This document shows positions 8,607 to 31,831 of a DNA stretch of 52,709 bases, piece by piece. Source of the DNA: a virus; IMG/VR virus record IMGVR_UViG_3300044529_000018, positions 1-52,709 of that record. One strand, written 5' to 3'. A program made the position numbers and the translations under genes. The notes below the pieces were generated by a model that was given only the letters and a program-made list of their open reading frames with translations, had not been told where the DNA came from and ran no database searches. The stretch's first letter is position 1. The number at the start of each line of letters is the position of its first letter.

Positions 8607-8785
8607 ATCCCGAAGTCACAAAATATATGCGCGAGATGCAGGCTCGCTCCGCCAAGAGCCGGTGGAGCGGGCTGACCGCTGCCAAAAAAAGTGCGGCCAT
8701 GAAAAAACTCCGCGCCAAAGGCAAACAAAAAACCAAGCGCGCACTCCGGCGCTCCAACAACGCAGAGCTGACCGATCACCGCTGA
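8603..8785 (+). CDS. Small basic protein, 60 aa
   Basis: It is Lys/Ala-rich and helical (KSRWSGLTAAKKSAAMKKLR), possibly binding nucleic acid. The 3' end of the gene is read through the R'' and L'' arms of attC1, so the last dozen residues are encoded by the site itself. Confidence 0.5.
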   Translation: MNPEVTKYMREMQARSAKSRWSGLTAAKKSAAMKKLRAKGKQKTKRALRRSNNAELTDHR

Positions 8786-8879
8786 CCATGACATCCGCCG
8801 ACACGACAATCTCAATGCCGCCCGCGACTCCCGAAACGGAGAGGCGCGGCGGTGATTCGTGTCCAGCGCTTGGTTCGGC
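8752..8879 (+). repeat. attC-like site 1
   Basis: R'' is CTCCAAC (8752-8758) and R' is GTTCGGC (8873-8879). The inner arms CGATCACCGC and GCGGTGATTCG pair with one unpaired T in the right arm, as expected for attC sites. The next unit starts with GTTCGGCGGCAC, and the exact 12-base reverse complement appears at the R'' of site 2. No partner for this site's own R'' was found upstream. Confidence 0.75.
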
Positions 8880-8928
8880 GGCACGGTCGGATTCACGGAA
8901 ATCGTCAATGAAATCAGGGCTAAAATAA
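8788..8928 (+). CDS. attC-crossing small ORF, 46 aa
   Basis: It starts 2 bp after the previous stop, inside the loop of attC1, and is read in frame through L' and R' (SCPALGSA) into the next unit. It may be a coupling or leader peptide rather than a functional protein. Low confidence, but the same layout recurs at other sites of the array. Confidence 0.3.
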   Translation: MTSADTTISMPPATPETERRGGDSCPALGSAARSDSRKSSMKSGLK

Positions 8929-8942
8929 ATCCCGAAAAGGTG

Positions 8943-8994
8943 TTGACAAATCAAAGATAAAATACGATGCTCTAATCGTTCTGAAAAACAGAAC
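8943..8994 (+). promoter_or_regulatory. Possible promoter and operator for cassette A
   Basis: TTGACA (8943-8948) is a perfect -35 box. The -10 at 17-bp spacing (GATGCT) is poor. A perfect inverted repeat GTTCTG / CAGAAC (8978-8994, 5-base loop) follows and could bind a repressor. It lies inside the first cassette, 36 bp before its main gene. Confidence 0.35.
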
Positions 8995-9030
8995 AGCCAC
9001 CGGGGGCGACCCGGAAAACAGAAACAACTG

Positions 9031-9480
9031 ATGAAAAATACAGCAAACAAAACGCCGAGCCTCGCGGCACTCCTTGAGGCAACAAACATCCCAACATCAC
9101 TCGTCCGCGCCGTCGTGCGTCAAATGGGTGGCTGGAAATCGTTCAGTGAATCCGCTCCTGACATTACACGCCACGGAATAGACGGCGGCTTCAACGGTTT
9201 CATCTACAACCGCGACACCGAAGCGTTTGCACGTCGCAATCGTGAGTCAATCGCTCAGATGGCCAGCGAGCAGGCTGCCGACTTCGGGAGCGGCGTAATC
9301 GAAATGATTCGCGGCTTTGGCTGCTTTCGGAACGGCACGAAGCCGACCGATGAGGAAATCGGATCGGCGCTGTATGCCGGACGCGATGCGAAAGACGGCC
9401 TACCGGTATTGAACGCGCTTGCGTGGTATGCCGGCGAAGAAGTCGCCCGCGCCTACTGTGACGCATTCGATCCTCAATGA
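9031..9480 (+). CDS. Hypothetical protein of cassette A, 149 aa
   Basis: This soluble protein has helical N- and C-terminal parts (SLVRAVVRQMGGWKSF, VLNALAWYAGEEVARAYC) around a Gly-rich middle (GGFNGFIYN). No catalytic motif or family was recognised. It is the main gene of the first unit bounded by two attC-like sites with matching ends. It has its own possible promoter at 8943, unlike the cassettes of the second block. The stop is 1 bp before the start of the next ORF. Confidence 0.65.
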   Translation: MKNTANKTPSLAALLEATNIPTSLVRAVVRQMGGWKSFSESAPDITRHGIDGGFNGFIYNRDTEAFARRNRESIAQMASEQAADFGSGVIEMIRGFGCFRNGTKPTDEEIGSALYAGRDAKDGLPVLNALAWYAGEEVARAYCDAFDPQ

Positions 9481-9481
9481 T

Positions 9482-9778
9482 ATGCCTGCGCCTGAGAAAA
9501 ATCAAAACGCGGTGAAGGACGAGGCCGATGTCGCCTCGTCCTTCCTGCACCTCCGCGTCGTGCCACGCGATAAAGCCGCCTGGGTCAAAGCCGCGAAGCG
9601 GCGGAAGAAGAAGCTGGCTGAGTGGACGACGGAGACGTTGAACCACGCTGCGCTAGTGCCGCCGAACGACCGGCTGGCCGCAACTCGAAAACCGTATGAA
9701 AAAGAAAAACCTCAAGACAGACAAACGCGCTCCAGAACTGAAACGCGGGAAGCCGGTTCGTGTCCAGCGCGTTGTTAG
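9482..9778 (+). CDS. Small basic protein of cassette A, possible ribbon-helix-helix type
   Basis: The segment SSFLHLRVVPRDKAAWVKAA followed by RRKKKLAEWTTETLNHAA has the strand-helix-helix pattern of ribbon-helix-helix DNA-binding proteins; I did not see a definite family signature. The 3' part is read through the whole of attC2, and the stop TAG is formed by the R' core (gTTAGgg). The tail after about residue 60 is therefore attC-encoded. It overlaps the ORF at 9696 in another frame. Confidence 0.5.
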   Translation: MPAPEKNQNAVKDEADVASSFLHLRVVPRDKAAWVKAAKRRKKKLAEWTTETLNHAALVPPNDRLAATRKPYEKEKPQDRQTRSRTETREAGSCPARC

Positions 9779-9780
9779 GG
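9661..9780 (+). repeat. attC-like site 2
   Basis: R'' is GCCGAAC (9661-9667) and R' is GTTAGGG (9774-9780). The arms GCTGGCCGCAACTCG and CCGGTTCGTGTCCAGC pair with bulged bases. The extended R'' GTGCCGCCGAAC is the exact reverse complement of the first 12 bases of cassette A at 8873. The bases after R' have no matched R'' downstream. Confidence 0.85.
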
Positions 9781-9977
9781 ATGCGACGACACGACTGCTG
9801 CTCGCTGTCTGTCTAAGAGTTCTGGCCGAAGCGCAAAGGGCCGTTGCTGATGGGAAATGGTGCGAGCGTGGAATGGATATCAAAATCAATCGCATCTTGT
9901 GCCCGCAATACTTTCCAATCCGCCGTTGGCGTCGTTTCAAAACAAACCCGCAAACAAGCACGCCAGAAAAATGTTGA
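9696..9977 (+). CDS. Hypothetical protein with attC-encoded N-terminus, 93 aa
   Basis: It starts in the loop of attC2 and is read through R' as VQRVVRDA. The same peptide (QxVVR) is encoded by attC sites 5, 6 and 13 in front of unrelated proteins. The rest is helical and basic (LLLAVCLRVLAEAQRAVADG). No family recognised. It overlaps the end of the 9482 ORF by 83 bp, so one of the two may not be expressed. Confidence 0.4.
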   Translation: MKKKNLKTDKRAPELKRGKPVRVQRVVRDATTRLLLAVCLRVLAEAQRAVADGKWCERGMDIKINRILCPQYFPIRRWRRFKTNPQTSTPEKC

Positions 9978-10001
9978 CACAATCCGCTAAAGCCGCATAA
10001 T
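9974..10001 (+). promoter_or_regulatory. Sigma-70-type promoter before the XRE regulator
   Basis: TTGACA (9974-9979), a 16-bp spacer and CATAAT (9996-10001) lie 8 bp before the start at 10010. This is the best promoter match in the early region. The short leader suggests near-leaderless translation of the regulator. Confidence 0.6.
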
Positions 10002-10009
10002 ACGCAAAT

Positions 10010-10240
10010 ATGAATCTTCCCACCATACCCACCCGCAAGATTGACAGCACCCGAGCCGGCGCCATGATCCGCGCCGCCCGCACCAAGGCGGAAATCTCCC
10101 TTCGCCGGCTGGCCGTGGCGATGGGAAAATCCGCGCCGTATCTGTGCGACCTGGAACTGGGTCGGCGCAACTGGACGCCCGAGCTGTTTTCATGCGCGGA
10201 GTCCAAACTTCAGGAACTAATTGCAGACAAGCACGCATGA
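10010..10240 (+). CDS. XRE-family HTH regulator, 76 aa
   Basis: The protein is nearly all one Cro/C1-type helix-turn-helix. ISLRRLAVAMGKSAPYLCDL (about residues 26-45) contains both HTH helices, followed by ELGRRNWTPELF, which is usual for XRE proteins. It likely controls the recombination operon that follows and perhaps its own promoter at 9974. It is too short to have a C-terminal sensor domain. The stop overlaps the next start. Confidence 0.8.
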   Translation: MNLPTIPTRKIDSTRAGAMIRAARTKAEISLRRLAVAMGKSAPYLCDLELGRRNWTPELFSCAESKLQELIADKHA

Positions 10241-10461
10241 AACCGATCAAGCCACTTTCAAACCTGATGACCCAGGAGCAGCTGGACGCCGCGCTTAATG
10301 GTCCGCTCTACGATGACCGGAACAGCATGCCTGACATTTTTGTGTCATACAGCGGCGACGAGCAGGAAAAGCGCCCTTGGACTTATCAAATATATTTCCA
10401 CGCCCAACTTTTATGGACGTGCGACCAGTACATCGAGAACCACCAATGGGGGACCAACTGA
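10237..10461 (+). CDS. Hypothetical protein, 74 aa
   Basis: I chose the ATG overlapping the HTH stop (ATGA). The product is acidic and aromatic-rich (WTYQIYFHAQLLWTCDQYIE), with no recognised family. It sits between the regulator and the ERF gene and is probably part of the same operon. Confidence 0.55.
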   Translation: MKPIKPLSNLMTQEQLDAALNGPLYDDRNSMPDIFVSYSGDEQEKRPWTYQIYFHAQLLWTCDQYIENHQWGTN

Positions 10462-10464
10462 TTT

Positions 10465-11232
10465 ATGAAAAACGCCAACACCGAACTTTTGCCGGCCGTT
10501 CAGACGCCTCAGGACGTTGCCCGACCCGCTCCAACCTCATTGGACATTCTTGATGCCGCCGTGCGTGGTGGGATCACGTCGGAAAATGTTGCCGTCGTCA
10601 AGGAAATCATCGCCATGCGCCGGGAGGAAGTCGCCTTGGAATCGAAAGGCAAATTCAACCGCTCATTCTTTGAACTGAAGCAAGAAATCAGCGGCATGGA
10701 TTTTTATGCGGACAAAGCCGCCAAGACCGATGGCGGGGCGATTGCTTACCGCTATTGCAGCGAGAAGGAACTAGCCGCCGGATTGGAGCCGGTTTTATTC
10801 CGTCACGGCTTCGCAATGCTGTTTGGGCAGCGCGATGAAGGCGAGCGAACCGTAGCCATCATTACCCTGATTCACAAGGACGGCCACGAGGAAACCCGTG
10901 AATACTCCGTGCGATCTGGCGCAACCAACCGCATGAAGGATGCGACCGCCGCCGACACCGGGGCGACCACCAGCGCGTGGCGGCATCTGGTCATAAAAAT
11001 GTTCGGCCTAAAATCGAGGATTCGAGAGGAGGACGACGCCCGAAATCTTGGCGACGGCGGAAAGATTACAGCCGCCCAAGCCGAGGAACTGGAACGCCGC
11101 GTGCATGAAACTAACAGTAATCTGCCGGCGTTTCTGAAGCTGGCCAAGGCAAACAATTTTGCGGAAATACCCGCCATTCAATACGACATTTTGGACGCAT
11201 TGCTGCGGACAAAGGAAGCGAGGGGACGTTGA
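10465..11232 (+). CDS. erf: ERF-family single-strand annealing recombinase
   Basis: The 255-residue protein matches the ERF family. Its core, about residues 50-180, has AYRYCSEKELAAGLEPVLFR, then GHEETREYSVRSG, then DTGATTSAWRHLVIKMFGL. The family anneals complementary single strands for phage recombination and genome circularisation. A helical tail follows. It is coupled to the YqaJ-type exonuclease, which would make the single strands. The pair lies between attC sites 2 and 3, but the ends of that segment do not match, so it is better seen as phage core than as a cassette. Confidence 0.85.
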   Translation: MKNANTELLPAVQTPQDVARPAPTSLDILDAAVRGGITSENVAVVKEIIAMRREEVALESKGKFNRSFFELKQEISGMDFYADKAAKTDGGAIAYRYCSEKELAAGLEPVLFRHGFAMLFGQRDEGERTVAIITLIHKDGHEETREYSVRSGATNRMKDATAADTGATTSAWRHLVIKMFGLKSRIREEDDARNLGDGGKITAAQAEELERRVHETNSNLPAFLKLAKANNFAEIPAIQYDILDALLRTKEARGR

Positions 11233-11936
11233 AAATCCACGACGTTGCTCAAGGCTCCCAGGAATGGCTCAATCTCCGCGCCGGAGTGCCTACCGCCAGC
11301 GAATTCGACGCGCTTGTTTCGCCTACGTTTGAAATACGAAAAGGCGACATGCCGCGCACCTATTTGCACAAAAAGCTGGCCGAATGGTGGCAGGGAGGCC
11401 CGTTGCTGGAATTCAATAGTTTCGACATGGATCAGGGCCAGATTTTGGAAGAATCCGCAAAGCCGAACTTCACGGTCGAAACGGACATTGAGATCCGCAA
11501 CGTCGGCTTTGTCACCACTGATGACGGCAAAATCGGATGTTCCCCGGACGGTCTGATCGGTGAAAACTCCGGCGTGGAAATCAAATGTCCAAAGATTGAA
11601 ACCCACGTCGGCTATTTGCTGACCGGCGTGCTGCCCAAGCAATACGGCGCCCAGGTTCATGGCTCCATGTTTGTCACAGGCGCCAACAGCTGGCGTTTTT
11701 ATTCGTATCGCCGCCGGATGCCCAGTCTCAACCTTTTGATCGAGCGCGACGACAAGGCGCAGGAGGCTCTCAAAGAGGCGCTTGAAATGTTCCTGGCAGC
11801 ATTCGAGATTGGCCAGAAGCGGCTCTGTGAGATAAACGGAGGTCCGCCAGTTCGACGTGTTGCCTTCAAACCGGGAGACTACACTTCCGAACAACTGGCG
11901 CAGGAGCAGGATAGACCTGATATTCCGACGCCGTAA
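11229..11936 (+). CDS. YqaJ-like (lambda exonuclease-type) recombination nuclease
   Basis: The 235-residue protein has the early GSQEWLNLRAGVPTASEF block and the PD-(D/E)xK catalytic core GCSPDGLIG (about residue 103) with GVEIKCPK (about 115). It would resect 5' ends for the ERF protein upstream. The start is TTG, overlapping the ERF stop. The stop TAA lies within the R'' core (CCGTAAC) of attC3, so the array resumes exactly at the end of this gene. Confidence 0.85.
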   Translation: MKIHDVAQGSQEWLNLRAGVPTASEFDALVSPTFEIRKGDMPRTYLHKKLAEWWQGGPLLEFNSFDMDQGQILEESAKPNFTVETDIEIRNVGFVTTDDGKIGCSPDGLIGENSGVEIKCPKIETHVGYLLTGVLPKQYGAQVHGSMFVTGANSWRFYSYRRRMPSLNLLIERDDKAQEALKEALEMFLAAFEIGQKRLCEINGGPPVRRVAFKPGDYTSEQLAQEQDRPDIPTP

Positions 11937-12053
11937 CGCAGAAGTGATCCACGGCGGGGACAACGAGCGATGAACGTAAAACAGACATTGGAATTGCCGA
12001 CAACGGTGGAGCGCAAGACGCACCCGCCGTTGTGCTCCACTGATTTGTTAGAT
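11931..12053 (+). repeat. attC-like site 3
   Basis: R'' is CCGTAAC (11931-11937), overlapping the YqaJ stop. R' is GTTAGAT (12047-12053). The arms GTGATCCACGGCGG and CCGCCGTTGTGCTCCAC pair imperfectly. The R'' core agrees with the R' of site 2 in six of seven bases but not beyond. Confidence 0.75.
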
Positions 12054-12092
12054 GTCCTGCGGCCCGCAATGTGCGAGCGCGAGGACATCTAA
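11970..12092 (+). CDS. attC-crossing 40-aa ORF of the mini-cassette
   Basis: It starts in the loop of attC3, is read through R' (TDLLDVL) and ends at the TAA inside the R'' of attC4. It is the only coding potential of the 146-bp unit C (12048-12193). Its N-terminus (TLELPTT...PPLCSTDLL) resembles the leader ORF of attC10 (TTLELPATPPVACSDLL), so the loop of one attC type encodes a conserved peptide. It is possibly a leader rather than a working protein. Confidence 0.35.
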   Translation: MNVKQTLELPTTVERKTHPPLCSTDLLDVLRPAMCEREDI

Positions 12093-12199
12093 CGCCAAGC
12101 TCACGAATCCCGCCGCCGAATGAACTCAACTCCTCCATCGCCAGAAGCCAACCGCCAACCCGCGAGCGCGGCCGGATTACGTGCAGCGTCGGGTTCGGA
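12087..12199 (+). repeat. attC-like site 4
   Basis: R'' is ATCTAAC (12087-12093) and R' is GTTCGGA (12193-12199). The right arm, reversed, reads GGACATCCGAAC and then ACGTAATCC, against AGGACATCTAAC and ACGAATCC in the left arm, with one bulged base. The unit start GTTAGATGTCCT (12047) is an exact 12-base reverse complement of this R''. Confidence 0.9.
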
Positions 12200-12644
12200 T
12201 GTCCGGCCCAAGACGCGAGCAAGTGACAAGAGCGTGCGTGACCGCGCTGTGACGGTGCGACTCACCAACGGGCAAATCGTGGTGGAGAATAAAACCTGCG
12301 GCATCCTGTTCAGCTTCCCCGCCGCGTGCTGGCCAGATGACAGCCTCTCCGCGCACCAGCGGATGTGGGTGAACCGCCTGACGCCTTGGTGGGACATGGA
12401 GCAACCGCAATGGTCGCCAACGTCTCAACGCCTCCGCGACTCGTGCCTCGCGGCGATCCGAAAACTTTTCCCGACAGAGCAACCGCTAAACGACCCATCG
12501 GCAACTGTGGGCCGGGACGCATCGGAAGGTGCGTCTGCTGCTCTGCCGGGAAACCAATCTAAAACCAACGGCGTGCTCCGGCATCCGAACGCCGCGCTCT
12601 GCGACCCGGCACACGGGGACGCAGGCAAACCAAAGACCTTATGA
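12120..12644 (+). CDS. Cassette D protein, weakly DUF2442-like, 174 aa
   Basis: The start is in the loop of attC4 and the frame runs through R' (SGSD). A central part, VTVRLTNGQIVVENKTCGI followed by LFSFPAACWPDD and WVNRLTPWW, resembles the small DUF2442 domain, which is common near toxin-antitoxin and mobile genes. The match is only suggestive. The first 30 or so residues and the last 25 are low complexity and attC-encoded, so the folded part is probably residues 40-110. The stop overlaps the next start as ATGA. Confidence 0.5.
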   Translation: MNSTPPSPEANRQPASAAGLRAASGSDVRPKTRASDKSVRDRAVTVRLTNGQIVVENKTCGILFSFPAACWPDDSLSAHQRMWVNRLTPWWDMEQPQWSPTSQRLRDSCLAAIRKLFPTEQPLNDPSATVGRDASEGASAALPGNQSKTNGVLRHPNAALCDPAHGDAGKPKTL

Positions 12645-12692
12645 GCAAATCCCAAGACGCAATGCCGAGTCCGCAGCAGCAAGTGGTTAGGA
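12584..12692 (+). repeat. attC-like site 5
   Basis: R'' is TCCGAAC (12584-12590) and R' is GTTAGGA (12686-12692). The arms GCTCTGCGACCCGGC and GCCGAGTCCGCAGCAGC pair. The first nine bases of cassette D (GTTCGGATG) match this R'' end. Confidence 0.85.
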
Positions 12693-12898
12693 GCAATGGG
12701 TGGGTAATCCTGCATCCAGACGGAAGGATGGAACTGGACTACTACCATGCGGAACTCAGCTACAACAAATACGGCGGACCTACGCTGTCAAAAGAGCAAT
12801 GGATGGAACGATACCGCCCAGACTGCACGCTTCATCGCGTCAACATCGAAATTGCTCCTAACGCCAAGCTCACAGACGGGGCTGGCACAAACGTATGA
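12641..12898 (+). CDS. Cassette E protein, 85 aa
   Basis: It starts in the attC5 loop, overlapping the previous stop as ATGA, and reads R' as QQVVRSNG. The folded part (GWVILHPDGRMELDYYHAEL...) is of a type seen in small phage proteins of unknown function. Its last residues are attC6-encoded. No catalytic residues were recognised. Confidence 0.55.
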   Translation: MSKSQDAMPSPQQQVVRSNGWVILHPDGRMELDYYHAELSYNKYGGPTLSKEQWMERYRPDCTLHRVNIEIAPNAKLTDGAGTNV

Positions 12899-12976
12899 AA
12901 GCAAAACGAACATCCAAATTAAAACGAGCGCGAACAGAACGGGCGAAGCCCCGTTCTGTGCAGCGCGTGGTTAGGG
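12856..12976 (+). repeat. attC-like site 6
   Basis: R'' is TCCTAAC (12856-12862) and R' is GTTAGGG (12970-12976). The arms AGCTCACAGACGGGGC and GCCCCGTTCTGTGCAGC pair closely with one bulged base. Cassette E starts with GTTAGGAGCAAT, the exact 12-base partner of this R'' end. Confidence 0.92.
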
Positions 12977-13257
12977 CGAAGACTCTCGAAGAACTCGTGC
13001 TCGACGCCCATGAGAAAGGCTTCGGCGTAGAAGTGAGCCTCGAACCTGTGCTGCGCGTTGAAGTCACCCGCAACATGGAGGCGGAACTGAGCTGGCTAGT
13101 ATCCAGCGGCCTGTTCGGTGGAAGCATCGCCGAAGCGGCGAGACGCATCCTAGAAGAATGGCTGTGGAACAATAAACAGCGTATCGCGGCACTTCGCCCT
13201 AACGCTCGAACTGAGCCACCGCCGACGGGTGACTCAGGAACTCCAAAGACTCTATGA
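12895..13257 (+). CDS. Cassette F protein with possible DNA-binding C-terminus, 120 aa
   Basis: It starts in the attC6 loop (ATGA overlap). The N-terminal 27 residues are very basic and attC-encoded (RSVQRVVRAK). The body has a strand-rich part (VEVSLEPVLRVEVTRN) and then a helix pair, LFGGSIAEAARRILEEWLW, reminiscent of ribbon-helix-helix proteins. This is only a fold-level impression. It is coupled to the next ORF. Confidence 0.55.
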   Translation: MKAKRTSKLKRARTERAKPRSVQRVVRAKTLEELVLDAHEKGFGVEVSLEPVLRVEVTRNMEAELSWLVSSGLFGGSIAEAARRILEEWLWNNKQRIAALRPNARTEPPPTGDSGTPKTL

Positions 13258-13304
13258 ATGAACTCAAAGCGCAATCGGCGGTTGGCTCAAGTGAGTTGTT
13301 GTGT
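13197..13304 (+). repeat. attC-like site 7
   Basis: R'' is CCCTAAC (13197-13203) and R' is GTTGTGT (13298-13304). The left arm GCTCGAACTGAGCC and right arm GGCTCAAGTGAGTTG closely resemble classical aadA-type attC arms in this orientation, with a bulged T in the right arm. Cassette F starts with GTTAGGGCGAAG, the exact 12-base partner. Confidence 0.92.
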
Positions 13305-13478
13305 GAGTTGGAACTGGCGCTGGACCACGCCAATAACGCCGCTGAATACTTCCGGAAGACCAACTCTCCGCGCTGGTATGGAATGCTACCGATTCTTGAG
13401 AGCCTCCGGGACATGACTAAAGAGTGCGAAATCCGTGCACACAACGCCAAGCCCACCAATCGGGCGTCTGAAACCTGA
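13254..13478 (+). CDS. Cassette G protein, 74 aa
   Basis: It starts in the attC7 loop, overlapping the previous stop, and reads through R' as VGSSELLCE. It is a helical protein (ELELALDHANNAAEYFRKTN) with SPRWYGMLPILESLRD. It resembles small helical phage proteins, with no known function. The C-terminus (HNAKPTNRASET) is encoded by attC8. Confidence 0.55.
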   Translation: MNELKAQSAVGSSELLCELELALDHANNAAEYFRKTNSPRWYGMLPILESLRDMTKECEIRAHNAKPTNRASET

Positions 13479-13569
13479 ACCGTCCAACGAAGCTAAAAAC
13501 TATGAGTGAATCAACAACGGAACAAAACTGTGAGCGTAAGCCCGATTGTGGTGCGGCGCATGGTTCGGC
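13439..13569 (+). repeat. attC-like site 8
   Basis: R'' is ACACAAC (13439-13445) and R' is GTTCGGC (13563-13569). The arms CCAATCGGGC and GCCCGATTGTGG pair. Cassette G starts with GTTGTGTG, an 8-base exact partner. The R'/R'' pair departs from the usual core, but both sides changed together. Confidence 0.88.
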
Positions 13570-13804
13570 GTCTTACGAGAAATGCCACTGTGGCGCTGAC
13601 TGCGTAAATCTTGGCGACAACCCAAACGAACCGTGCTGGGGCAGAGTGCAAGCAACCGACGTGATGGAAACGGATGATGACGACATCTGGATTCATCACT
13701 GCTCCGGCCACGAGCCAACGCAGGATATACCACCGAAACCATACAGGCCGGAGACGCCGAACGGTGAGATCAGCCACAGCCACCGTGCGAAAACTTTCGT
13801 ATGA
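13502..13804 (+). CDS. Cassette H Cys/His-rich protein, 100 aa
   Basis: The body holds CHCGADC, then PNEPCWGRVQATDV, then DDIWIHHCSGH. This is a Cys/His set that could bind zinc, and the CWG...WIHxCxGH pattern recurs in small phage proteins. It starts in the attC8 loop 23 bp after the previous stop and reads R' as AHGSA. The C-terminal third is rich in Pro and attC9-encoded. Confidence 0.6.
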   Translation: MSESTTEQNCERKPDCGAAHGSASYEKCHCGADCVNLGDNPNEPCWGRVQATDVMETDDDDIWIHHCSGHEPTQDIPPKPYRPETPNGEISHSHRAKTFV

Positions 13805-13883
13805 AACCTGCCCGAACAAACCTAAAAATGATGCAGCCAACTCCAAGGGGCAGTGGCTGTTGGTCTGCATCGAATTGTTAGAC
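13756..13883 (+). repeat. attC-like site 9
   Basis: R'' is GCCGAAC (13756-13762) and R' is GTTAGAC (13877-13883). The arms GATCAGCCACAGCCACCG and CAGTGGCTGTTGGTCTGCATC pair with bulges. Cassette H starts with GTTCGGCGTCT, an exact 11-base partner. Confidence 0.88.
13801..13881 (+). CDS. attC9 leader ORF, 26 aa
   Basis: It starts in the attC9 loop, overlapping the previous stop, and its stop TAG is formed by the R' core. The next gene starts 7 bp later. Ribosomes would be carried through the hairpin and delivered to the cassette I gene. It probably acts as a coupling leader. Confidence 0.35.
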   Translation: MKPARTNLKMMQPTPRGSGCWSASNC

Positions 13884-13888
13884 GACCT

Positions 13889-14164
13889 ATGACGAGAGAA
13901 ATCATAATACAACCAGTGCTCAACGGCTATGTGTGTGTCGTTGGATGTCAGCGCGTCGCATTCACTGACAAGCAAACGATGCTGGGGCAACTCAGCGAAT
14001 ACCTCGACAAGCCCGATGAAGTGGAACAACGCTACATCGAACGCGCCGTGAACAAAATGGGGCCAGCCGTGCCGCAACCGTGCAGGCCAACCGACTGCTG
14101 TGAGTCCAGCGCGACCCAGCCGTCCGTAGCGATGGGGCGTGTGGAACAATGCCGGCCACAATAA
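13889..14164 (+). CDS. Cassette I protein, 91 aa
   Basis: This gene starts cleanly after the R' core (MTREIIIQPVLNGYVCVVGC), as in classical cassettes. The N-terminal part (VGCQRVAFTDKQTMLGQLSE) with the following YLDKPDEVEQRY is of a type common in small phage proteins of unknown role. The C-terminus is low complexity and runs towards the site 10 hairpin. I would place the folded part at residues 1-60. Confidence 0.6.
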   Translation: MTREIIIQPVLNGYVCVVGCQRVAFTDKQTMLGQLSEYLDKPDEVEQRYIERAVNKMGPAVPQPCRPTDCCESSATQPSVAMGRVEQCRPQ

Positions 14165-14171
14165 CACAAAT

Positions 14172-14202
14172 GACGACCAGGCTCGCAAGGGGTCTGGTCG
14201 TC
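14172..14202 (+). terminator. Strong hairpin before the R'' of attC10
   Basis: A 9-bp perfect stem GACGACCAG / CTGGTCGTC with a 13-base loop ends in the R'' core. No T run follows, so it may be a pause or mRNA-protection structure. Part of it comes from the extended R'-R'' complementarity of the cassette. Confidence 0.45.
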
Positions 14203-14308
14203 TAACGACGAACTCAAGCACCGGCGCGAATAACCCATGATGCCCGCCACGCCAACGACGCTTGAACTGCCAGCGACCCCGCCGGTTGCTTGCAGTGATT
14301 TGTTAAGC
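14200..14308 (+). repeat. attC-like site 10
   Basis: R'' is GTCTAAC (14200-14206) and R' is GTTAAGC (14302-14308). The arms ACTCAAGCACCGGCG and CGCCGGTTGCTTGCAGT pair with one bulged T. Cassette I starts with GTTAGACGACC, an exact 11-base partner. Confidence 0.92.
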
Positions 14309-14320
14309 ATCAATTTATGA
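14237..14320 (+). CDS. attC10 leader ORF, 27 aa
   Basis: It starts in the attC10 loop and reads through L' and R' (VACSDLLSINL). It stops in an ATGA overlap with the start of the cassette J gene at 14317, a relay arrangement. It shares the TLELP and CSxDLL peptides with the attC3 ORF. Confidence 0.4.
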   Translation: MMPATPTTLELPATPPVACSDLLSINL

Positions 14321-14868
14321 AACAGAAACTCGATGAAGTCCGCACTCTGGCCATCAAACTGTTCGAGGCCGGCGAGACGGAAAAACGCAAACAGCCGAAG
14401 CGCAGAAAGAACAAAATGAAAATCACAGAAATCACAATCGGAAGACTCTACAACCTCGGCAGCTACGAGCACGTCCGCTACGAACTGACTGCCGAAGTGC
14501 CACAAGGCGAAAGCGCCGCAACCGCAATCATCGGCATGGAGAAAATCCTCGCCGCACTGTCCCCGAAAACCTCAACGCATAGCCGCGATGAACTCGCCCG
14601 CGAAAAGCGGCAGGTCGAAGAAATGCACCGCAAGCTGTCAGACGAAGGGCCGGACGAGTTCCGCCGATACTACGGGCACAGCTTCGTCGGCACGCCGGAA
14701 GAATACATCGGACGCTGCGAACAGTCGCACGCCGACAACGTGGCACGCCGCGAAGCGTGGGAAGCCAGGAGCGCGAAAGCCCGCAAGCTGCTCGAAGACC
14801 TCGGCGGCGCTGCAAACTTCAAAGATGCCAAACTCGATTGGGAGGATGGCGACGACTTTGATGCTTAA
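14317..14868 (+). CDS. Cassette J protein, 183 aa
   Basis: Two starts are possible. The one at 14317 is coupled to the leader ORF and gives a basic N-terminus (EKRKQPKRRKNK); an ATG at 14416 (MKITEITIGRLYNLGSYEHV) begins a domain with the NLGxYExxR pattern of small phage proteins. After residue 90 the protein is a charged coiled coil (REKRQVEEMHRKLSDEG, NVARREAWEARSAKARKLLE). The stop TAA lies within the R'' of attC11. Function unknown. Confidence 0.6.
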   Translation: MKQKLDEVRTLAIKLFEAGETEKRKQPKRRKNKMKITEITIGRLYNLGSYEHVRYELTAEVPQGESAATAIIGMEKILAALSPKTSTHSRDELAREKRQVEEMHRKLSDEGPDEFRRYYGHSFVGTPEEYIGRCEQSHADNVARREAWEARSAKARKLLEDLGGAANFKDAKLDWEDGDDFDA

Positions 14869-14984
14869 CATAAAAGCTGAGCCGCCGCCTGTGAGCGGTG
14901 GTGATGCGCAAGGAAAACTCTCAAATGAATAACGACATCCAAACGGACAGCGATAAGGCGGTTGGCTCCGGCGCTTTGTTAGGC
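14863..14984 (+). repeat. attC-like site 11
   Basis: R'' is GCTTAAC (14863-14869) and R' is GTTAGGC (14978-14984). The arms AGCTGAGCCGCCGCC and GGCGGTTGGCTCCGGCGC pair. Cassette J starts with GTTAAGCATCAA, an exact 12-base partner. Confidence 0.92.
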
Positions 14985-15008
14985 ATCAGCGACATAAAAT
15001 CTAACTAA
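14925..15008 (+). CDS. attC11 leader ORF, 27 aa
   Basis: It starts in the attC11 loop, is read through R' as VGSGALLGISD, and ends 1 bp before the next start (TAAaATG). It is probably a coupling leader for the cassette K gene. Confidence 0.35.
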   Translation: MNNDIQTDSDKAVGSGALLGISDIKSN

Positions 15009-15009
15009 A

Positions 15010-15282
15010 ATGAAAACCGAAACATCTAACACCGAAATGATCCGGCTGTCTGAACTCAACGCGAACCTCGCCAGCGAGCTAAATCAAAACGACTGGAACG
15101 TGCCAATCGAAGGCAGCCTCACGGCACTGCGGCGAACGCTCTCGCGACTGAATGAGCGCGTCCACTCAAGCTACGACTTCAATGCCGACCCCGACCGCAT
15201 GACGCTCGAAGTGGGTGACGCGCTAAGGTGTAACAAAATAGCTGAGCCAAGCCCGGCCAGCGATGCCCGGAAAACAGACTGA
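15010..15282 (+). CDS. Cassette K protein, 90 aa
   Basis: This small helical protein (LSELNANLASELNQNDWNVP, LTALRRTLSRLNERVHSSYD) is probably made of two helices. The last 15 residues are attC12-encoded. Function unknown. It is the one cassette of the second block whose unit ends do not match well. Confidence 0.55.
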   Translation: MKTETSNTEMIRLSELNANLASELNQNDWNVPIEGSLTALRRTLSRLNERVHSSYDFNADPDRMTLEVGDALRCNKIAEPSPASDARKTD

Positions 15283-15319
15283 CGTGCGTCCGGGCTTTGG
15301 CTCCGGCGTATGGTTAGGC
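15228..15319 (+). repeat. attC-like site 12
   Basis: R'' is GTGTAAC (15228-15234) and R' is GTTAGGC (15313-15319). The arms AGCTGAGCCAAGCCCGG and CCGGGCTTTGGCTCCGGC pair well. The start of cassette K (GTTAGGC) agrees with this R'' at only five of seven core bases, so the site is either decayed or replaced. Confidence 0.8.
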
Positions 15320-15343
15320 GACGGTAAAAACGAAAGGACAAAT

Positions 15344-15682
15344 ATGAGTAGATGGTATATGACCGATGAAGAAAAACGCGGCTATGCTGCGCAACAGCAG
15401 CATAGCTACCAAAGCGAACATGACGGCGGGCACGACTACCAGCAGGGCTGGCGCGAAGGCGAGCGCGAGGATAGGCGCGAGCGTGAACGCCAAGAGGAGC
15501 GCCGCCAAGAGCAAGAGGCTGAAGAACGCGCCGAAGAACGGCGTCGGCATGAATCGTATATGCGCTCACAAGAGGAAGAACAGGAACAATACGAGCAAAT
15601 GAAACAGCAACCTGAACCACAGGAACAGCCGGTGGTCGAGTCGCCTAACGACCAAGCTCTGCGACTGGAGAACAACCCATGA
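15344..15682 (+). CDS. Cassette L charged coiled-coil protein, 112 aa
   Basis: I chose the ATG at 15344, which has a GGAC ribosome-binding site 6 bp upstream; the same frame is also open back to an ATG in the attC12 loop (15263). The protein is an Arg/Glu/Gln-rich coiled coil (GWREGEREDRRERERQEERR) ending in a Pro/Glu-rich stretch. It may be a structural or RNA-binding protein; no family recognised. The stop overlaps the next ORF as ATGA. Confidence 0.55.
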   Translation: MSRWYMTDEEKRGYAAQQQHSYQSEHDGGHDYQQGWREGEREDRRERERQEERRQEQEAEERAEERRRHESYMRSQEEEQEQYEQMKQQPEPQEQPVVESPNDQALRLENNP

Positions 15683-15766
15683 ACATAGACCGCGCAACAG
15701 CCATTCAAGCATCCCAAGGCCGCGCTGCGGGGCGAACCGAAGGTTCGCAGCAGCGCGTGGTTCGGT
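15643..15766 (+). repeat. attC-like site 13
   Basis: R'' is GCCTAAC (15643-15649) and R' is GTTCGGT (15760-15766). The arms AGCTCTGCGA and TTCGCAGCAGC pair, and the loop carries a second small hairpin (GCGAACC/GGTTCGC). Cassette L starts with GTTAGGCGAC, an exact 10-base partner. Confidence 0.85.
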
Positions 15767-15957
15767 GCTGTGCGACATGCGCAGAATGGCTCCCAAACAA
15801 GATGGAATGCAAGCACGTCCCGAATGAAGCTGCACCGCCAGAAGCGTCCTGCGGAGGATGGGTGCGGAGGCGAGAACCCAATCGCCCGTGGGACATGTGG
15901 GCGAATGAGAAAGCACCGAACGTGCCGATGAGCGAACCGCCGACCAAAAATCTATGA
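15679..15957 (+). CDS. Cassette M zinc-ribbon-like protein, 92 aa
   Basis: The first 27 residues are attC13-encoded (SQQRVVR). The body then has CCATCAEWLPNKMECKHVP followed by EASCGGWV. The four or five cysteines in this spacing suggest a small zinc ribbon, and similar short proteins occur in phages. The stop overlaps the next start as ATGA. Confidence 0.6.
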   Translation: MNIDRATAIQASQGRAAGRTEGSQQRVVRCCATCAEWLPNKMECKHVPNEAAPPEASCGGWVRRREPNRPWDMWANEKAPNVPMSEPPTKNL

Positions 15958-16006
15958 AAAACACTGAAGACGCCAACGGCGGTTCGCTCCATCGGGCTGG
16001 TTCTGC
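15915..16006 (+). repeat. attC-like site 14
   Basis: R'' is ACCGAAC (15915-15921) and R' is GTTCTGC (16000-16006). The arms GATGAGCGAACCGCCG and CGGCGGTTCGCTCCATC pair with a bulged base. Cassette M starts with GTTCGGTGCT, an exact 10-base partner. Confidence 0.9.
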
Positions 16007-16286
16007 GCCGGACATGGAACTCGAAAGCTTCAAGCGTGAACGGAATGAAGCTCTGCTCTCGCGCGACGCCATCCGCATCCGCGCAATGGTGCGGAAGTGG
16101 AATAAAATCGAAATGCCAGCCGACCCGAAAACCTTCTGGGGCGCAGTCCACAAGGCGATAACCGGAAACCTCGGCCTGCCCCGCGACTTCCGGCTCAAAT
16201 CAAAAGCGTGGCTGACGGAACACAAGCTCACCAGCTTCGACGACGGCGACCTCGATGAGGCGCAGAACGAGAAAGTTCAGGTATGA
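15954..16286 (+). CDS. Cassette N protein, 110 aa
   Basis: It starts in the attC14 loop (ATGA overlap) and reads R' as RAGSAP. The body is helical (LESFKRERNEALLSRDAIRI) with a conserved-looking TFWGAVHKAITG and a short C-terminal helix. This type is seen in phages as a small protein of unknown function. It is coupled to the next ORF by ATGA. Confidence 0.6.
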   Translation: MKNTEDANGGSLHRAGSAPDMELESFKRERNEALLSRDAIRIRAMVRKWNKIEMPADPKTFWGAVHKAITGNLGLPRDFRLKSKAWLTEHKLTSFDDGDLDEAQNEKVQV

Positions 16287-16392
16287 GCGTCAAACCAAAA
16301 TGTGAGCACGGATACACTGACCCGGACGAGTTTTGCCCAGAATGCCCGTACCCAAGTGCGCCAAGCGAATTACCTGCAACGCATGGTTCGGC
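16262..16392 (+). repeat. attC-like site 15
   Basis: R'' is GCAGAAC (16262-16268) and R' is GTTCGGC (16386-16392). The arms AGTTCAGGTATG and ATTACCTGCAACGC pair. Cassette N starts with GTTCTGCGCC, an exact 10-base partner. The loop is long and coding. Confidence 0.85.
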
Positions 16393-16591
16393 GGCATTGG
16401 ATGCGCTTCTTAAAAAATATCCGGCGAATGCCCGACGGCTGCGAGAGAAGCGAGAATACCTTGCAAACCAAATGGCGGATTGGCGAGCACGCGGCCTCGT
16501 CCAATATGGCGGAAATTCTTGGGCTAATGTGCTCATGCCGCCGAACGCTCCGCATGAGCCGCCGGCGGCGAAAAACCAAGACCATGAATAA
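16283..16591 (+). CDS. Cassette O protein with attC-encoded Cys motif, 102 aa
   Basis: It starts just inside the left arm of attC15. The loop of the site encodes KCEHGYTDPDEFCPECP, a Cys/His set that could bind zinc, before R' is read as THGSAAL. The cassette-encoded part is a helix (LREKREYLANQMADWRARG) and a short tail. If the Cys motif is functional, it belongs to the preceding unit's attC, which is unusual. Confidence 0.55.
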   Translation: MSVKPKCEHGYTDPDEFCPECPYPSAPSELPATHGSAALDALLKKYPANARRLREKREYLANQMADWRARGLVQYGGNSWANVLMPPNAPHEPPAAKNQDHE

Positions 16592-16649
16592 CACTCTGAC
16601 ATCCGAACTGCCAAGCGTTCCGCCGGTTGGCTCCATGCAGTTGTTGGGC
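16540..16649 (+). repeat. attC-like site 16
   Basis: R'' is GCCGAAC (16540-16546) and R' is GTTGGGC (16643-16649). The arms GAGCCGCCGG and CCGGTTGGCTC pair with a bulged T. Cassette O starts with GTTCGGCGGCAT, an exact 12-base partner. Confidence 0.92.
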
Positions 16650-17279
16650 CGCGTTTTGGTGGCGTGCGAATTTTCGGGAATAGTCCGTGACGCCTTCGCT
16701 GCTCGCGGGTGGGATGCGTGGTCGTGTGACATACTGCCAACTGACAAACCCGGCCAACACTTCCAAGGTGACGTGCGCGACATCCTGCATGAAAGCTGGG
16801 ACTTGATGATAGCTCACCCGCCATGCACCTACCTATGCAACTCTGGCGTGCGGTGGCTGACCGAAGATGGTCCAGGTCACAACGGATATATCCGACGCAC
16901 GATGATGAGAGAAGGTGCTGAATTTTTCAAGTCGCTGCTCAATGCCGACATCCCGCATATCGCAATCGAAAACCCAATCCCACACAGATATGCGCTGCAA
17001 ATCATCGGCAGGAAATACGACCAAATCATCCAACCGTGGCAGCACGGTCATGGCGAGACAAAGGCAACCTGCCTCTGGCTGAAAAATCTCCCGAAACTGA
17101 AACCGTCAAACGTCGTGGAAGGACGCGAAGGCAAAGTCTGGAAAATGCCGCCAAGCCCTGACCGATGGAAAGAGCGCAGCAGAACCTACACCGGAATAGC
17201 TGAAGCTATGGCCGACCAGTGGACTCGCGCAACGCGGCCCAACACTGTATTATACGACTCCTCCGCAACTAAAAAATGA
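16584..17279 (+). CDS. Cassette P DNA-methylase-like protein, 231 aa
   Basis: The fold is that of a SAM-dependent DNA cytosine methylase-like protein. ACEFSGIVRDAFAARGW (about residues 26-42) is motif I, HPPCTYLC (about 77-84) gives the PPC catalytic site, and ENPIPH (about 128-133) gives an ENP element. It is common in phages and would modify phage or host DNA. I start it at the ATG in the attC16 loop; an ATG upstream at 16302 lies in another gene. It is the last and largest typical cassette, with a 13-base match between its ends. Confidence 0.7.
   Translation: MNNTLTSELPSVPPVGSMQLLGRVLVACEFSGIVRDAFAARGWDAWSCDILPTDKPGQHFQGDVRDILHESWDLMIAHPPCTYLCNSGVRWLTEDGPGHNGYIRRTMMREGAEFFKSLLNADIPHIAIENPIPHRYALQIIGRKYDQIIQPWQHGHGETKATCLWLKNLPKLKPSNVVEGREGKVWKMPPSPDRWKERSRTYTGIAEAMADQWTRATRPNTVLYDSSATKK
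17237..17243 (+). repeat. Half attC site: R'' of the last cassette
   Basis: The R'' core GCCCAAC belongs to the 13-base AACGCGGCCCAAC, the exact reverse complement of the start of cassette P. The right arm and R' core were not found in the next 1.4 kb, so the array ends in a broken site. Confidence 0.7.
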
Positions 17280-18491: not shown

Positions 18492-18694
18492 TGTCGTCGC
18501 ATCGCCAATCCATGACCCCTGAAGAAGGAGCCGCGTTTGTAGAATATCGCAAGGCAGACCAGGCGGCGCGAGCCATCCTGAACGACTTCATAAAATCCTC
18601 ACCAGACTACCAAGCCGCTTACAAACTTTCGCAGTTGAAATATTGGGCCTGGGAATCCATCCACAACAAAAACGAAAAGGCCGGCGAGCACTGA
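18488..18694 (+). CDS. Hypothetical helical protein, 68 aa
   Basis: The start overlaps the upstream stop (ATGATG). It is a helical protein (EEGAAFVEYRKADQAARAIL, YQAAYKLSQLKYWAWESI). It is the last gene of the plus-strand early operon; the terminator stem begins inside its final codons. Confidence 0.6.
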   Translation: MMSSHRQSMTPEEGAAFVEYRKADQAARAILNDFIKSSPDYQAAYKLSQLKYWAWESIHNKNEKAGEH

Positions 18695-18720
18695 AACGAA
18701 TGCTCCGCCGGCCCTTTCTT
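18679..18720. terminator. Bidirectional terminator between convergent operons
   Basis: A stem GGCCGGCGAGCA / TGCTCCGCCGGCC with one bulge is followed by CTTTCTT on the plus strand and preceded by AAAA, which gives T's on the minus strand. It separates the plus-strand early genes from the minus-strand late genes. Confidence 0.8.
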
Positions 18721-18727
18721 GGATCAA

Positions 18728-19354
18728 TCAGGAAACCGTTACGGTGAACACGCGAGCCGCTTTCGACGTGCCATCGGTGACGGTCACCGTGACAGCGGAA
18801 ACGCCGGTCTGCGAGGCCACCGGGGTAAACGAGATGGAACCGGACGGGTCGGGGTTGGTGTACACCACGTCAGGATTCGGAACCACATCGGTATTGCTGG
18901 AAACCGCGGTCACGCTCAAGGTTGCTCCCTTGGCCGTGGTGGAGATCCCGGCGATGCCAACGGTCTGAATCCCGGCGTCCTTGGCCACAGGTAGGTCGGC
19001 AATCGCGTCCAAGGTGACGGCGCCCTTCGGGGTAAGGTCGGCAGCAATCTTCGCGGAAACCGTTCCGGCGAGTGCGTTCAACTGGTCGATTTCGGGTTGC
19101 AGCTCAACCGCGCCATTGCTGGCGATAATTGCTGCAATCACGGGGGCGAGAGCGGCTTCGACCGCTGTTTCAACTGCGAGAGGGAGCGCGGCGATAGCAG
19201 CGTCCAGGTCTTGTTTTGTAGCCATAATGTTTAGCCTTTCTTCAATCCGGTGAATGATTTTTTGGTTATTGTGTGCGTTCCACTCAAGAATCTCACGCAG
19301 GACGCGAGTCAAGAGAGAAATTGATTCGGACAATTTGTGTTCCTCATCGTGCAT
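18728..19354 (-). CDS. Virion-associated protein with coiled coil and Ig-like domain
   Basis: The N-terminal 43 residues are a short coiled coil (LLTRVLREILEWNAHNNQKI). An internal ATG at 19225 (MATKQDLDAA) has a better ribosome-binding site (GAAAGG) and may be a second start. A helical, Ala-rich stretch follows. The C-terminal 90 residues form an Ig-like or invasin-like domain (SISFTPVASQTGVSAVTVTV), a type often seen on phage tail or head decoration proteins. It is last in the minus-strand operon. Confidence 0.6.
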   Translation of the reverse strand: MHDEEHKLSESISLLTRVLREILEWNAHNNQKIIHRIEERLNIMATKQDLDAAIAALPLAVETAVEAALAPVIAAIIASNGAVELQPEIDQLNALAGTVSAKIAADLTPKGAVTLDAIADLPVAKDAGIQTVGIAGISTTAKGATLSVTAVSSNTDVVPNPDVVYTNPDPSGSISFTPVASQTGVSAVTVTVTDGTSKAARVFTVTVS

Positions 19355-27836: not shown

Positions 27837-28054
27837 TTCAATATACGACTGGTGGTCGGATAATCATTGTTCGGCACCATTTGGCGCGCCGCACGTTTGA
27901 GTTGCATTTCGTTCCAGCCGCCCTCGCTGTTTGCGAAGCGTTTAGCCCAGCGGATTAGCCGCTCGGCTGATTGCACCTCGCGGACGCGCTTCGTCAGCGC
28001 ATCGTTGCGTTTTCGCAGGCAGGTTATTTGTCGTTTTAGGACGGCTTGGCTCAT
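27833..28054 (-). CDS. Hypothetical basic coiled-coil protein, 73 aa
   Basis: A short coiled coil (QITCLRKRNDALTKRVREVQ) is followed by a basic helical part (LIRWAKRFANSEGGWNEMQL). It might bind DNA or act in assembly. It overlaps its neighbours by 4 bp on each side. Confidence 0.55.
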   Translation of the reverse strand: MSQAVLKRQITCLRKRNDALTKRVREVQSAERLIRWAKRFANSEGGWNEMQLKRAARQMVPNNDYPTTSRILK

Positions 28055-28128
28055 ACGTTCGGCAATTTGATTTCGGGAGAATGCGCCTCGGGCGTCTGGG
28101 TCAATTCGGATGTTGGTTGGTGGCGCAT
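28051..28128 (-). CDS. Possible 25-aa peptide
   Basis: It encodes a short hydrophilic peptide (LTQTPEAHSPEIKLPNV) whose stop overlaps the next start as ATGA. The overlap is the only support. Confidence 0.25.
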   Translation of the reverse strand: MRHQPTSELTQTPEAHSPEIKLPNV

Positions 28129-28143
28129 CTGTGAGCTAATCGT

Positions 28144-28566
28144 TCACGCTCTTTTCCTTCCCTTCGATGAAAACTCCTCGACCAGCTTCGGGTCAACTTC
28201 CTCATTCAGGAATTCCGACTCCAATGCCTCCGGCGTCGGGTTGTGTCCGCCCATCGACTCGAAATCCGCAAGGGCCATGGTATAGCCTTCGCACCGCGCC
28301 TGCTGCAATGCGCGGGCATTCGTATCGCCGGAGGTCATCACCTGAAACGCCGGATGCGAATTATGTAACACCTGCAACATACGCCGCAAAAGTGGTGAAG
28401 TTAAAGCCCCGTGCGCCTGCTCGGTCAACCCCTTGTCCCCGCGCCATTGATCCAAGGTCAATGAACCGAGTTCGGTTTCCACAATCACAACCCTTCGTTG
28501 CGGCGGCGGTGTGGGACTGGCGGCGGACTTTGGCTTTGGCCACAAATTGAACATTGATGTACTCAA
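28144..28566 (-). CDS. Hypothetical protein, 140 aa
   Basis: It has a basic, Pro-rich start (NLWPKPKSAASPTPPPQRR) followed by a helical body (SPLLRRMLQVLHNSHPAFQV, ALQQARCEGYTMALADFESM) and an acidic C-terminus. The body resembles small proteins found next to portal or capsid genes in podoviruses, but I cannot name a family. It lies downstream of the methyltransferase on the same strand. Confidence 0.6.
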   Translation of the reverse strand: MSTSMFNLWPKPKSAASPTPPPQRRVVIVETELGSLTLDQWRGDKGLTEQAHGALTSPLLRRMLQVLHNSHPAFQVMTSGDTNARALQQARCEGYTMALADFESMGGHNPTPEALESEFLNEEVDPKLVEEFSSKGRKRA

Positions 28567-28585
28567 ACCCTATTTTCATAATCTG

Positions 28586-29119
28586 TCAAGCAGTTTTTAC
28601 GCCCTCAATCACGCTGGTCTGAATATACATGGCTTCGACCTGATTGATTATTGCGCCGTGCCTTTCCACTCCCACCAGCTCAGGGTAATTGGATTCGCCA
28701 AGGCAAACCTCATTGGCGGAGAATCCCCGTGCCGTCAGGCACACCAGCATCGCGTCCACCGTCCAGATGGCCACATGGCCCCAGTCCTCGATGATGGACG
28801 CCAGCGACCCTTCAATGGTTGGCGGGCGGTTGGTCCACGGATTGAATTCTTCCAGATACCGCTTGTTGTAGTGCCGGCAGATTCGCACCGGATCGGGAAA
28901 GGCCATCCGCAGGACGCCGCCAACTTTCAGCACCCGCCGGGCCTCAGCAAAGAATTTCCAGCCCTGTTGCGGGGTGACGTGCTCGATGACGTGCTCGGAA
29001 AACATAAAGTCCACCGAATCATCGGCAAATGGGAGTGGCAAGGTGATGTCCGTTTCCATGTCACGGTTATCCCAGCCCTCAAGTTTGTTTGGCCCGCAAC
29101 CCAGTTGAACTTTTTTCAT
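28586..29119 (-). CDS. Class I SAM-dependent methyltransferase (Methyltransf_11 type)
   Basis: The 177-residue protein starts directly with motif I (VQLGCGPNKLEGWDN). It continues with PFADDSVDFMFSEHVIEHV, RRVLKVGGVLRMAFPDP and a C-terminal beta part. It is of the same type as the plus-strand methyltransferase at 2574, and both end in KTA followed by the same 15-base hairpin core. It overlaps the glycosyltransferase-like gene upstream. The likely role is methylation of a sugar made by the neighbouring enzymes. Confidence 0.8.
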   Translation of the reverse strand: MKKVQLGCGPNKLEGWDNRDMETDITLPLPFADDSVDFMFSEHVIEHVTPQQGWKFFAEARRVLKVGGVLRMAFPDPVRICRHYNKRYLEEFNPWTNRPPTIEGSLASIIEDWGHVAIWTVDAMLVCLTARGFSANEVCLGESNYPELVGVERHGAIINQVEAMYIQTSVIEGVKTA

Positions 29120-31433: not shown

Positions 31434-31505
31434 TTCAGAATCTCATGTGTTTTGCATAATGCGTTGTTAGACAGCCGGGCGCATCCAGGTTGCAATCGTG
31501 AGCCT

Positions 31506-31793: not shown

Positions 31794-31831
31794 AGGGTTG
31801 CTTGGGTTAATCGCCGCTGCTCACCTTGGCG

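Follow-up and report, generated by a model that had tools for sequence, protein, structure and literature searches.

What are sixteen recombination sites of the integron type doing in the genome of a phage? The question is raised by IMG/VR virus record IMGVR_UViG_3300044529_000018, a contig of 52,709 nucleotides that was analyzed over its whole length (referred to here as the window). Integrons are usually treated as bacterial gene-capture devices, and a few pieces of them have been reported in phages. A first-pass annotation, made from the sequence of the window alone, had described sixteen attC-like sites in one orientation, followed by a half site, between positions 8752 and 17243. In our judgment, this stretch is very probably a true cassette array of an integron, with 16 attC sites and no integrase gene in the contig, within the early region of a podovirus-type tailed phage whose host most likely belongs to the Verrucomicrobiota, and which would operate by the mechanism proposed below.

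attC sites and cassette ends

A motif scan of the window for attC anatomy gave a cluster at 8.75-16.65 kb and hardly any candidates elsewhere. A covariance model, R1, was then built from 36 sites of other contigs (25 from phages and 11 from Verrucomicrobiota), the window sequence being excluded. R1 recovered all 16 sites with the same ends, each on the plus strand: 15 at E values of 2e-12 to 2e-4 and the weakest, site 2, at 0.036 (calibration was shortened, and all R1 E values are rough). These sites, sharing one strand within 7.9 kb, form a same-orientation cluster of the kind that defines a cluster of attC sites lacking integron-integrases (CALIN). The sixteen sites are thus borne out at essentially the positions first given, and the array reading survives the covariance-model check, with every site scoring as attC. 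One further R1 match at E < 0.05 was returned from the whole window, on the minus strand at 31735-31837; it looks real and is discussed below. No R1 match was found in 76 other YqaJ-phage loci, which total 984 kb, or in three related loci that lack arrays. The model recognized class 1 integron attC sites at 41 to 52 bits, as well as the sites of Virus Rctr41k, and missed the validated attC sites of phage TJE1; it is therefore no universal attC model. Since the R1 training sites were preselected for pairing arms, their inner-stem covariation (150 double-change cells versus 60 after shuffling) is partly built in, and the real test lies in the hold-out and the negative controls. Rfam returned no match at gathering thresholds.

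Given as R''-to-R' spans on the plus strand, with R1 E values in parentheses, the sites are as follows. Site 1 lies at 8755-8879 (37 bits; 2.8e-6); phage contig G319 has an attC with 96.6% identity to it over 117 bp. Site 2, at 9661-9780, scores 18.9 bits, and the ends of the cassette between sites 1 and 2 match over 12 nt. Site 3, at 11931-12053 (8.1e-7), holds the stop codon of the YqaJ gene in its R'' box and shares 78% identity over 112 bp with an attC of G011, a contig of a related phage. There follow site 4 at 12087-12199 (2.7e-6), site 5 at 12584-12692 (3.8e-7), site 6 at 12856-12976 (2e-12), site 7 at 13197-13304 (1.7e-9), site 8 at 13439-13569 (1.1e-5), site 9 at 13756-13883 (1.2e-6), site 10 at 14200-14308 (1.2e-9), site 11 at 14863-14984 (1.4e-7), site 12 at 15228-15319 (2e-11), site 13 at 15643-15766 (2.1e-7), site 14 at 15915-16006 (5.3e-8), site 15 at 16262-16392 (1.8e-4), and site 16 at 16540-16649 (1.3e-8).

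Alignment and arm analysis of the window sites, which are 92 to 131 bp long, found the anatomy expected in a CALIN: AAC and GTT cores, paired inner arms, and extrahelical bases. Gaps between neighboring sites range from 33 bp (sites 3 and 4) to 2.15 kb (sites 2 and 3, where the ERF and YqaJ genes lie), so the unit spacing of about 150-900 bp reported in the first-pass annotation does not hold. The folding check proposed there gave mixed results for single linear sites, with z-scores from -5.4 to -0.2 (-5.35 for site 14, folded as DNA) that are indecisive for long-loop sites. Hence, an energy test alone could not have decided attC identity.

When an integron cassette is a circle, its two ends jointly form one attC. 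The start and the end of the same interval are thus expected to be complementary, beyond the boxes of any one linear site. In the window, 14 of 16 intervals have ends complementary in exact runs of 8 to 12 nt, as circular cassettes in a CALIN should. Complementarity averages 9.6 nt, compared to 4.2 nt when the ends are permuted (0 of 20,000 permutations) and 3.6 nt within sites. This statistic is conservative because the last interval was scored as a failure: the test used the AAC at 17233, while the correct AAC at 17241-17243 yields an 11-nt run (GTTGGGCCGCG at 16643 and CGCGGCCCAAC ending at 17243). Matching is also found in 16 other viral contigs with sites, where 36 of 47 intervals reach at least 7 nt (mean of 8.9 nt versus a permuted maximum of 4.7 nt). 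The intervals of the window are cassettes, and their matching ends are the mark of units that were once circles. An exception is the stretch from site 2 to site 3; it encodes a helix-turn-helix protein along with ERF and YqaJ and is phage backbone, no cassette.

Gene direction, reading frame, and array ends

Cassette genes of the window and its relatives depart from familiar integrons in their orientation. Extrahelical bases, typically two and about 6 nt apart in the window, fall mainly in the left arm in class 1 and Rctr41k sites, whereas 13 of 16 window sites have more of them in the right arm, and R1 places class 1 sites on the other strand with respect to the gene. The likeness of site 7 to aadA-type sites that had been proposed is for this reason not upheld, most window sites bearing their extrahelical bases on the arm opposite to that of class 1 sites. 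In relatives that encode the integron integrase (IntI), an attI-like sequence stands at the right array end and intI begins directly after it; the polarity of attC relative to intI is therefore the usual one, and it is the cassette genes that point toward intI. By a single method, the longest open reading frame (ORF) lay opposite to the R1 strand in 22 of 29 intervals of bacterial arrays whose attC sites are of this type (chiefly from Verrucomicrobiota, with one contig labeled Actinomycetota) and on the R1 strand in 47 of 73 phage intervals (Fisher P = 3.5e-4 versus bacteria; 60 of 73 with the sites included), a measure that is crude since antisense ORFs are long in GC-rich DNA. Relative to attC, the direction of cassette genes looks reversed compared to the bacterial cousins, in a manner that appears specific to phages.

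The reading frame in which genes enter an attC is also constrained. Among upstream genes of at least 40 codons, the AAC of the R'' box is in codon frame in 12 of 13 cases in the window (binomial P = 1.7e-5) and in 42 of 49 cases in other phages (P = 5e-14), values that are inflated by homology among the sites. Where an ORF begins within a site, its passage through R' is spread evenly over the three frames (4, 5, and 4 in the window; 23, 18, and 15 in other phages). In all 16 window sites, the locked frame ends at a stop within the site, often in an ATGA that doubles as the next start. Only six bacterial genes could be scored, three of them in the locked frame, which are too few for comparison with phages. 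A count of NTGA stop-start junctions was set aside in favor of the R'' frame test, as such junctions are common by chance (44% of random placements under a loose definition). On the simplest reading, what moves would be an attC together with the gene on its right, and the following attC would provide the stop codon. A fixed entry frame with a stop inside the next attC may be a trait specific to phages.

Gene content illustrates these junctions, all genes named here being on the plus strand. ORF 12120-12644 starts in site 4 and stops in site 5; ORFs 12641-12898 and 12895-13257 have ATGA overlaps with their neighbors in sites 5 and 6 and in sites 6 and 7, respectively; and ORF 13254-13478 runs from site 7 into site 8. 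The same pattern returns farther on, with ORF 15263-15682 starting in site 12 and stopping in site 13, followed by ORFs 15679-15957 and 15954-16286 with ATGA overlaps in sites 13 and 14 and in sites 14 and 15. The last cassette carries a DNA methyltransferase gene (16584-17279) that starts in site 16; the longer ORF 16302-17279 matches phrog_757 at an E value of 1e-60. The first 83 bp of the cassette ORF at 14317-14868 are found again in the arrays of two complete phages, G321 and G323, and a DUF7222-domain cassette gene at 9031-9480 (Pfam PF23864, E = 5e-6) has relatives in 34 other viral contigs. The smallest interval, 47 bp at 12047-12093, is scarcely more than its own inverted ends; together with the flanking site it holds a 40-residue ORF that ends exactly in the next R'' box. 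In the backbone interval lie genes for an ERF-like single-stranded DNA annealing protein (10465-11232; phrog_155, E = 1e-5) and, directly upstream of site 3, a YqaJ-like exonuclease (11229-11936; PF09588, E = 2e-19). Most cassette proteins had no match in Pfam, and PADLOC found no known defense gene among ten of them.

At the right end of the array, the half site that had been noted at 17236-17243 is present. It is better read as the array end, where an R''-like box is followed by an attI-like core, ATTATACGAC (17236-17260, minus strand). With a core profile taken from IntI-adjacent attI sites of relatives, position 17241 ranks first among 3,546 AAC-anchored positions, which suggests an attI-like junction at 17236-17260. 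A strict regular expression for attI missed several attI sites and was replaced by this profile approach. A second locus lies among the late genes on the minus strand. Here, an attI-like site at 27837-27874, with no adjoining integrase gene, scores better than the one at the array end, matching a held-out attI profile at an E value of 3.5e-4, and the lone attC at 31735-31837 (R1 E = 4.7e-6) completes an interval whose ends match over 8 nt. This region, 27837-31837, is possibly a second cassette insertion point. Its approximately 3.9 kb hold several cargo-like genes, including methyltransferase-like and DUF5672-like ones, and a cluster of glycosyltransferase-, methyltransferase-, and ATP-grasp-like genes extends over 28586-35674 (minus strand) between capsid-side genes and the portal gene. 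Two other phage contigs, G005 (28294-29211) and G016 (18561-18862), likewise have attI-like sites away from the integrase gene with an attC upstream; in G005, the ends of the interval match over 11 nt.

The phage, its relatives, and their integrases

The window encodes a terminase large subunit (39539-41374, minus strand) that is homologous to TerL of G321 (E = 9e-22), which itself matches phrog_2 at 1.7e-7. A podovirus-type portal protein (36443-38686, minus strand) is common to G004, G011, G319, G321, G323, and G325. Its AlphaFold model has modest confidence (predicted local distance difference test score of 58), and its 23 PDB matches at E ≤ 0.001 consist entirely of portals and of phage tail, neck, or vertex complexes that contain a portal, mostly from podoviruses. 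A primase/helicase is encoded besides ERF and YqaJ. Judging from the predicted terminase and portal, the window is a tailed phage (Caudoviricetes) of podovirus type.

Portal, terminase, or other structural genes are held in common with the window by G011, G319, G321, G323, and G325, which carry approximately 11, 8, 2, 4 to 5, and 3 to 4 attC sites, respectively. Direct terminal repeats of 127 nt in G321 and 102 nt in G323 mark these two as complete genomes (56.7 and 58.7 kb). G326 is approximately the same phage as G325 in the array region, and the order ERF-YqaJ-attC is as in the window. Pieces of attC and cassettes also recur between phages, as seen for site 1 in G319 and for the 83 bp of cassette gene in G321 and G323. 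With arrays in related phages, two of them complete by their terminal repeats, the window array is no chimera. The placement of an integron-type array inside a phage genome, joined to phage genes, is in this way supported both by the covariance model and by the relatives. At the end of contig G011, positions 52086-52212 are identical over 127 bp to an internal attC at 2574-2700. The assembly thus breaks at an attC, and the end repeat may reflect duplication of a site or a population in which arrays vary. In phage G002, a tandem repeat region upstream of ERF (L002:1-430) codes for a repetitive protein.

IntI is encoded by the relative G002 (74,992 bp, with a 119-nt terminal repeat) and by the structural relative G011, and close relatives of it occur in 22 viral contigs altogether, some of them partial. 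The phage IntI matches TIGR02249 at an E value of 2.5e-73, slightly under the family cutoff (247 versus 265 bits); its closest solved structure is VchIntIA (2a3v, E = 6e-61), and the catalytic residues are conserved in the phage proteins. By homology, the phage IntIs are integron integrases. Terminase or portal genes are present in at least 14 of the 22 contigs, and in the complete genome G021, intI overlaps the neighboring terminase-family gene (coordinate 32740). Two remnants were also seen, in G025 (L026:10001-10204) and in G018 (L019:5769-6721); one has an in-frame stop and the C-terminal part alone, and the other is frameshifted near its end.

The closest bacterial IntIs come from Verrucomicrobiota, with 52 to 56% identity over full-length matches. 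One such genome belongs to a GTDB order with 293 genomes; an IntI is present in 82 of these, and only about 9 carry the phage type (the others score <285 bits). In a tree, twelve phage IntIs form one clade (100/99 support) next to these rare Verrucomicrobiota chromosomal IntIs. The hypothesis that all viral IntIs arose once withstood a test with 34 sequences (P = 0.47) and was rejected with 45 (P = 0.0099). This shift hangs at least in part on the 3-kb contig L243, which was binned with bacterial sequences but may be of viral origin. We therefore limit the claim to the 12-member viral clade. More than one transfer between phages and bacteria is likely.

Origin of the array and comparison with known systems

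How might an array without an integrase work? In the mechanism that we propose, an IntI tyrosine recombinase would be supplied in trans, either by a chromosomal integron of the host or by a coinfecting phage that encodes IntI. It would recombine folded attC single strands, and small cassettes could thereby be inserted, deleted, and shuffled. The cassettes would be read as an extension of the early operon downstream of ERF and YqaJ. Since each gene enters the next attC in a fixed frame, stops there, and often overlaps the next start, translational coupling would be kept in any gene order. The array would let the phage exchange small accessory genes, such as that for the DNA methyltransferase. 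A broader proposal, which we regard as evenly balanced, is that integrons have been domesticated by a group of Verrucomicrobiota phages, with an IntI lineage and a cassette pool of their own, reversed genes, and attC sites that serve as fixed-frame stop-start junctions to keep a shuffled operon coupled; members such as the window would borrow an integrase from the host or from another phage.

Several observations weigh against an array of this kind. No IntI was found in the window by TIGR02249, by our IntI alignment A1, or by tblastn (best E = 0.008), so the contig lacks the intI gene of a complete integron, and any current activity would be conjectural. Two of the 16 intervals (sites 2-3 and sites 11-12) fail the end-match test; the attI-like sequence at 17236 is weak, with an E value of 15 for the full-length profile; the host is assigned solely because IntI and attC are related to those of integrons in Verrucomicrobiota; and the contig is linear and may be incomplete. 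The missing integrase and the two unmatched intervals would also suit a relic, that is, a block of a host chromosomal integron acquired once, by recombination or transduction, and now decaying or persisting as ordinary phage genes with no acting integrase. Decay does occur in such phages, as the broken IntI of G025 and orphan hairpins in G022 attest. We consider this account possible but rather unlikely, given that related phages bear arrays differing in size and content, that matching ends are kept in 14 of 16 cassettes, and that the gene direction and frame lock, which are unlike those of the bacterial cousins, would be unexpected in a recent piece of host integron.

It is improbable that the phage has its own integrase in a part of the genome absent from the contig. 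The contig is linear, with a truncated first gene and a last gene that continues beyond its end, and the relative G011 has an IntI, but in relatives this gene sits directly beside the array end, which in the window is internal and without IntI. Moreover, the window approaches the length of the complete relatives of 56.7 and 58.7 kb, whose arrays lack IntI. A chimera of bacterial integron and phage, arisen in assembly or binning, is barely credible: the window is known as an assembled contig, but other samples have yielded several independent viral contigs of this phage group that also bear arrays, two of them complete, and in G021, intI overlaps a terminase gene. We attach equally little weight to the notion that the repeats are palindromes of another kind (terminators, REP-like elements, or packaging repeats). 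The mixed folding scores would allow it, but the hold-out result, the recognition of class 1 attC sites by the same model, the paired extrahelical bases about 6 nt apart, and the cassette-wise matching of ends argue otherwise. An array of the cassette type that draws on an integrase in trans is thus the reading that we prefer.

Arrays recur across this phage group, and the IntIs of several phage genomes group together, away from the IntIs that are common in the presumed hosts; integrons may thus be a working gene-exchange device of phages as well as of bacteria. If active, they would permit site-specific swapping of small accessory genes, e.g., a methyltransferase against host restriction, and cassette traffic in both directions between phages and bacterial integrons. 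The frame lock, together with the stop and start that meet inside attC, would offer a new explanation of how promoterless cassettes are expressed. A lineage of phage IntIs with arrays of its own was not described anywhere in the literature searched, which comprised chiefly openly available papers and no bioRxiv preprints.

Arrays without an integrase have already been published for phages: Qi et al. 2023 (PMC9892861) described CALINs in TJE1, P12002L, PH101, and others, virulent phages included, and found that five of six attC sites tested worked with IntI1. They also described complete integrons, including Vibrio chromosomal integron fragments and class 1 integrons. The first-pass remark that no array of such size is known inside a phage core genome needs correcting in that phages with arrays are on record, although the window has far more sites than the array of TJE1, which is drawn with three attC sites and four ORFs. 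Both are attC clusters without an integrase within phage genomes; in the window, in contrast, 16 sites are present, arrays recur across the phage group, relatives have phage IntIs of their own clade, and the gene direction is inverted and the frame locked. The window sites resemble class 1 attC sites of the aadA type in their R'' and R' cores, in the pairing of their inner arms, and in having two extrahelical bases set about 6 nt apart, but these bases lie on the other arm relative to the gene and the central loops are longer.

Virus Rctr41k (KX853513) has an IntI-like gene, labeled xerD and integrase-like, after which come five attC-like sites spaced in the manner of cassettes (L160:4680-9434), and apparently carries an unrecognized phage integron. 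Like the IntI-bearing relatives of the window, it is a phage record, annotated with a terminase and a capsid gene, that has an IntI-like gene beside attC-like sites. Its IntI, however, is 35% identical, its extrahelical bases are on the usual arm relative to gene direction, and its intI lies upstream of the array in a Treponema-like order. In the reverse integrons of Treponema denticola, intI and the cassette genes share their direction of transcription (PMC6557892 and PMC3607928), as they do in the phage relatives. There, however, intI reads toward attI with the cassettes after it. In the phages, the array comes first and intI begins just past attI, with the cassette genes reading toward intI and attC in its usual polarity relative to intI; a reverse integron of the Treponema type was therefore rejected. 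Close counterparts are the Verrucomicrobiota chromosomal integrons with a viral-type IntI (loci L080-L084 and L094). They share with the phages the IntI (52 to 56% identical to the query phage IntI in the full-length loci), the attC type recognized by the same model, the side of the array on which intI lies, and matching cassette ends. They differ in that their cassette genes run mostly opposite to the attC model strand (22 of 29), whereas those of the phages run mostly along it (47 of 73).

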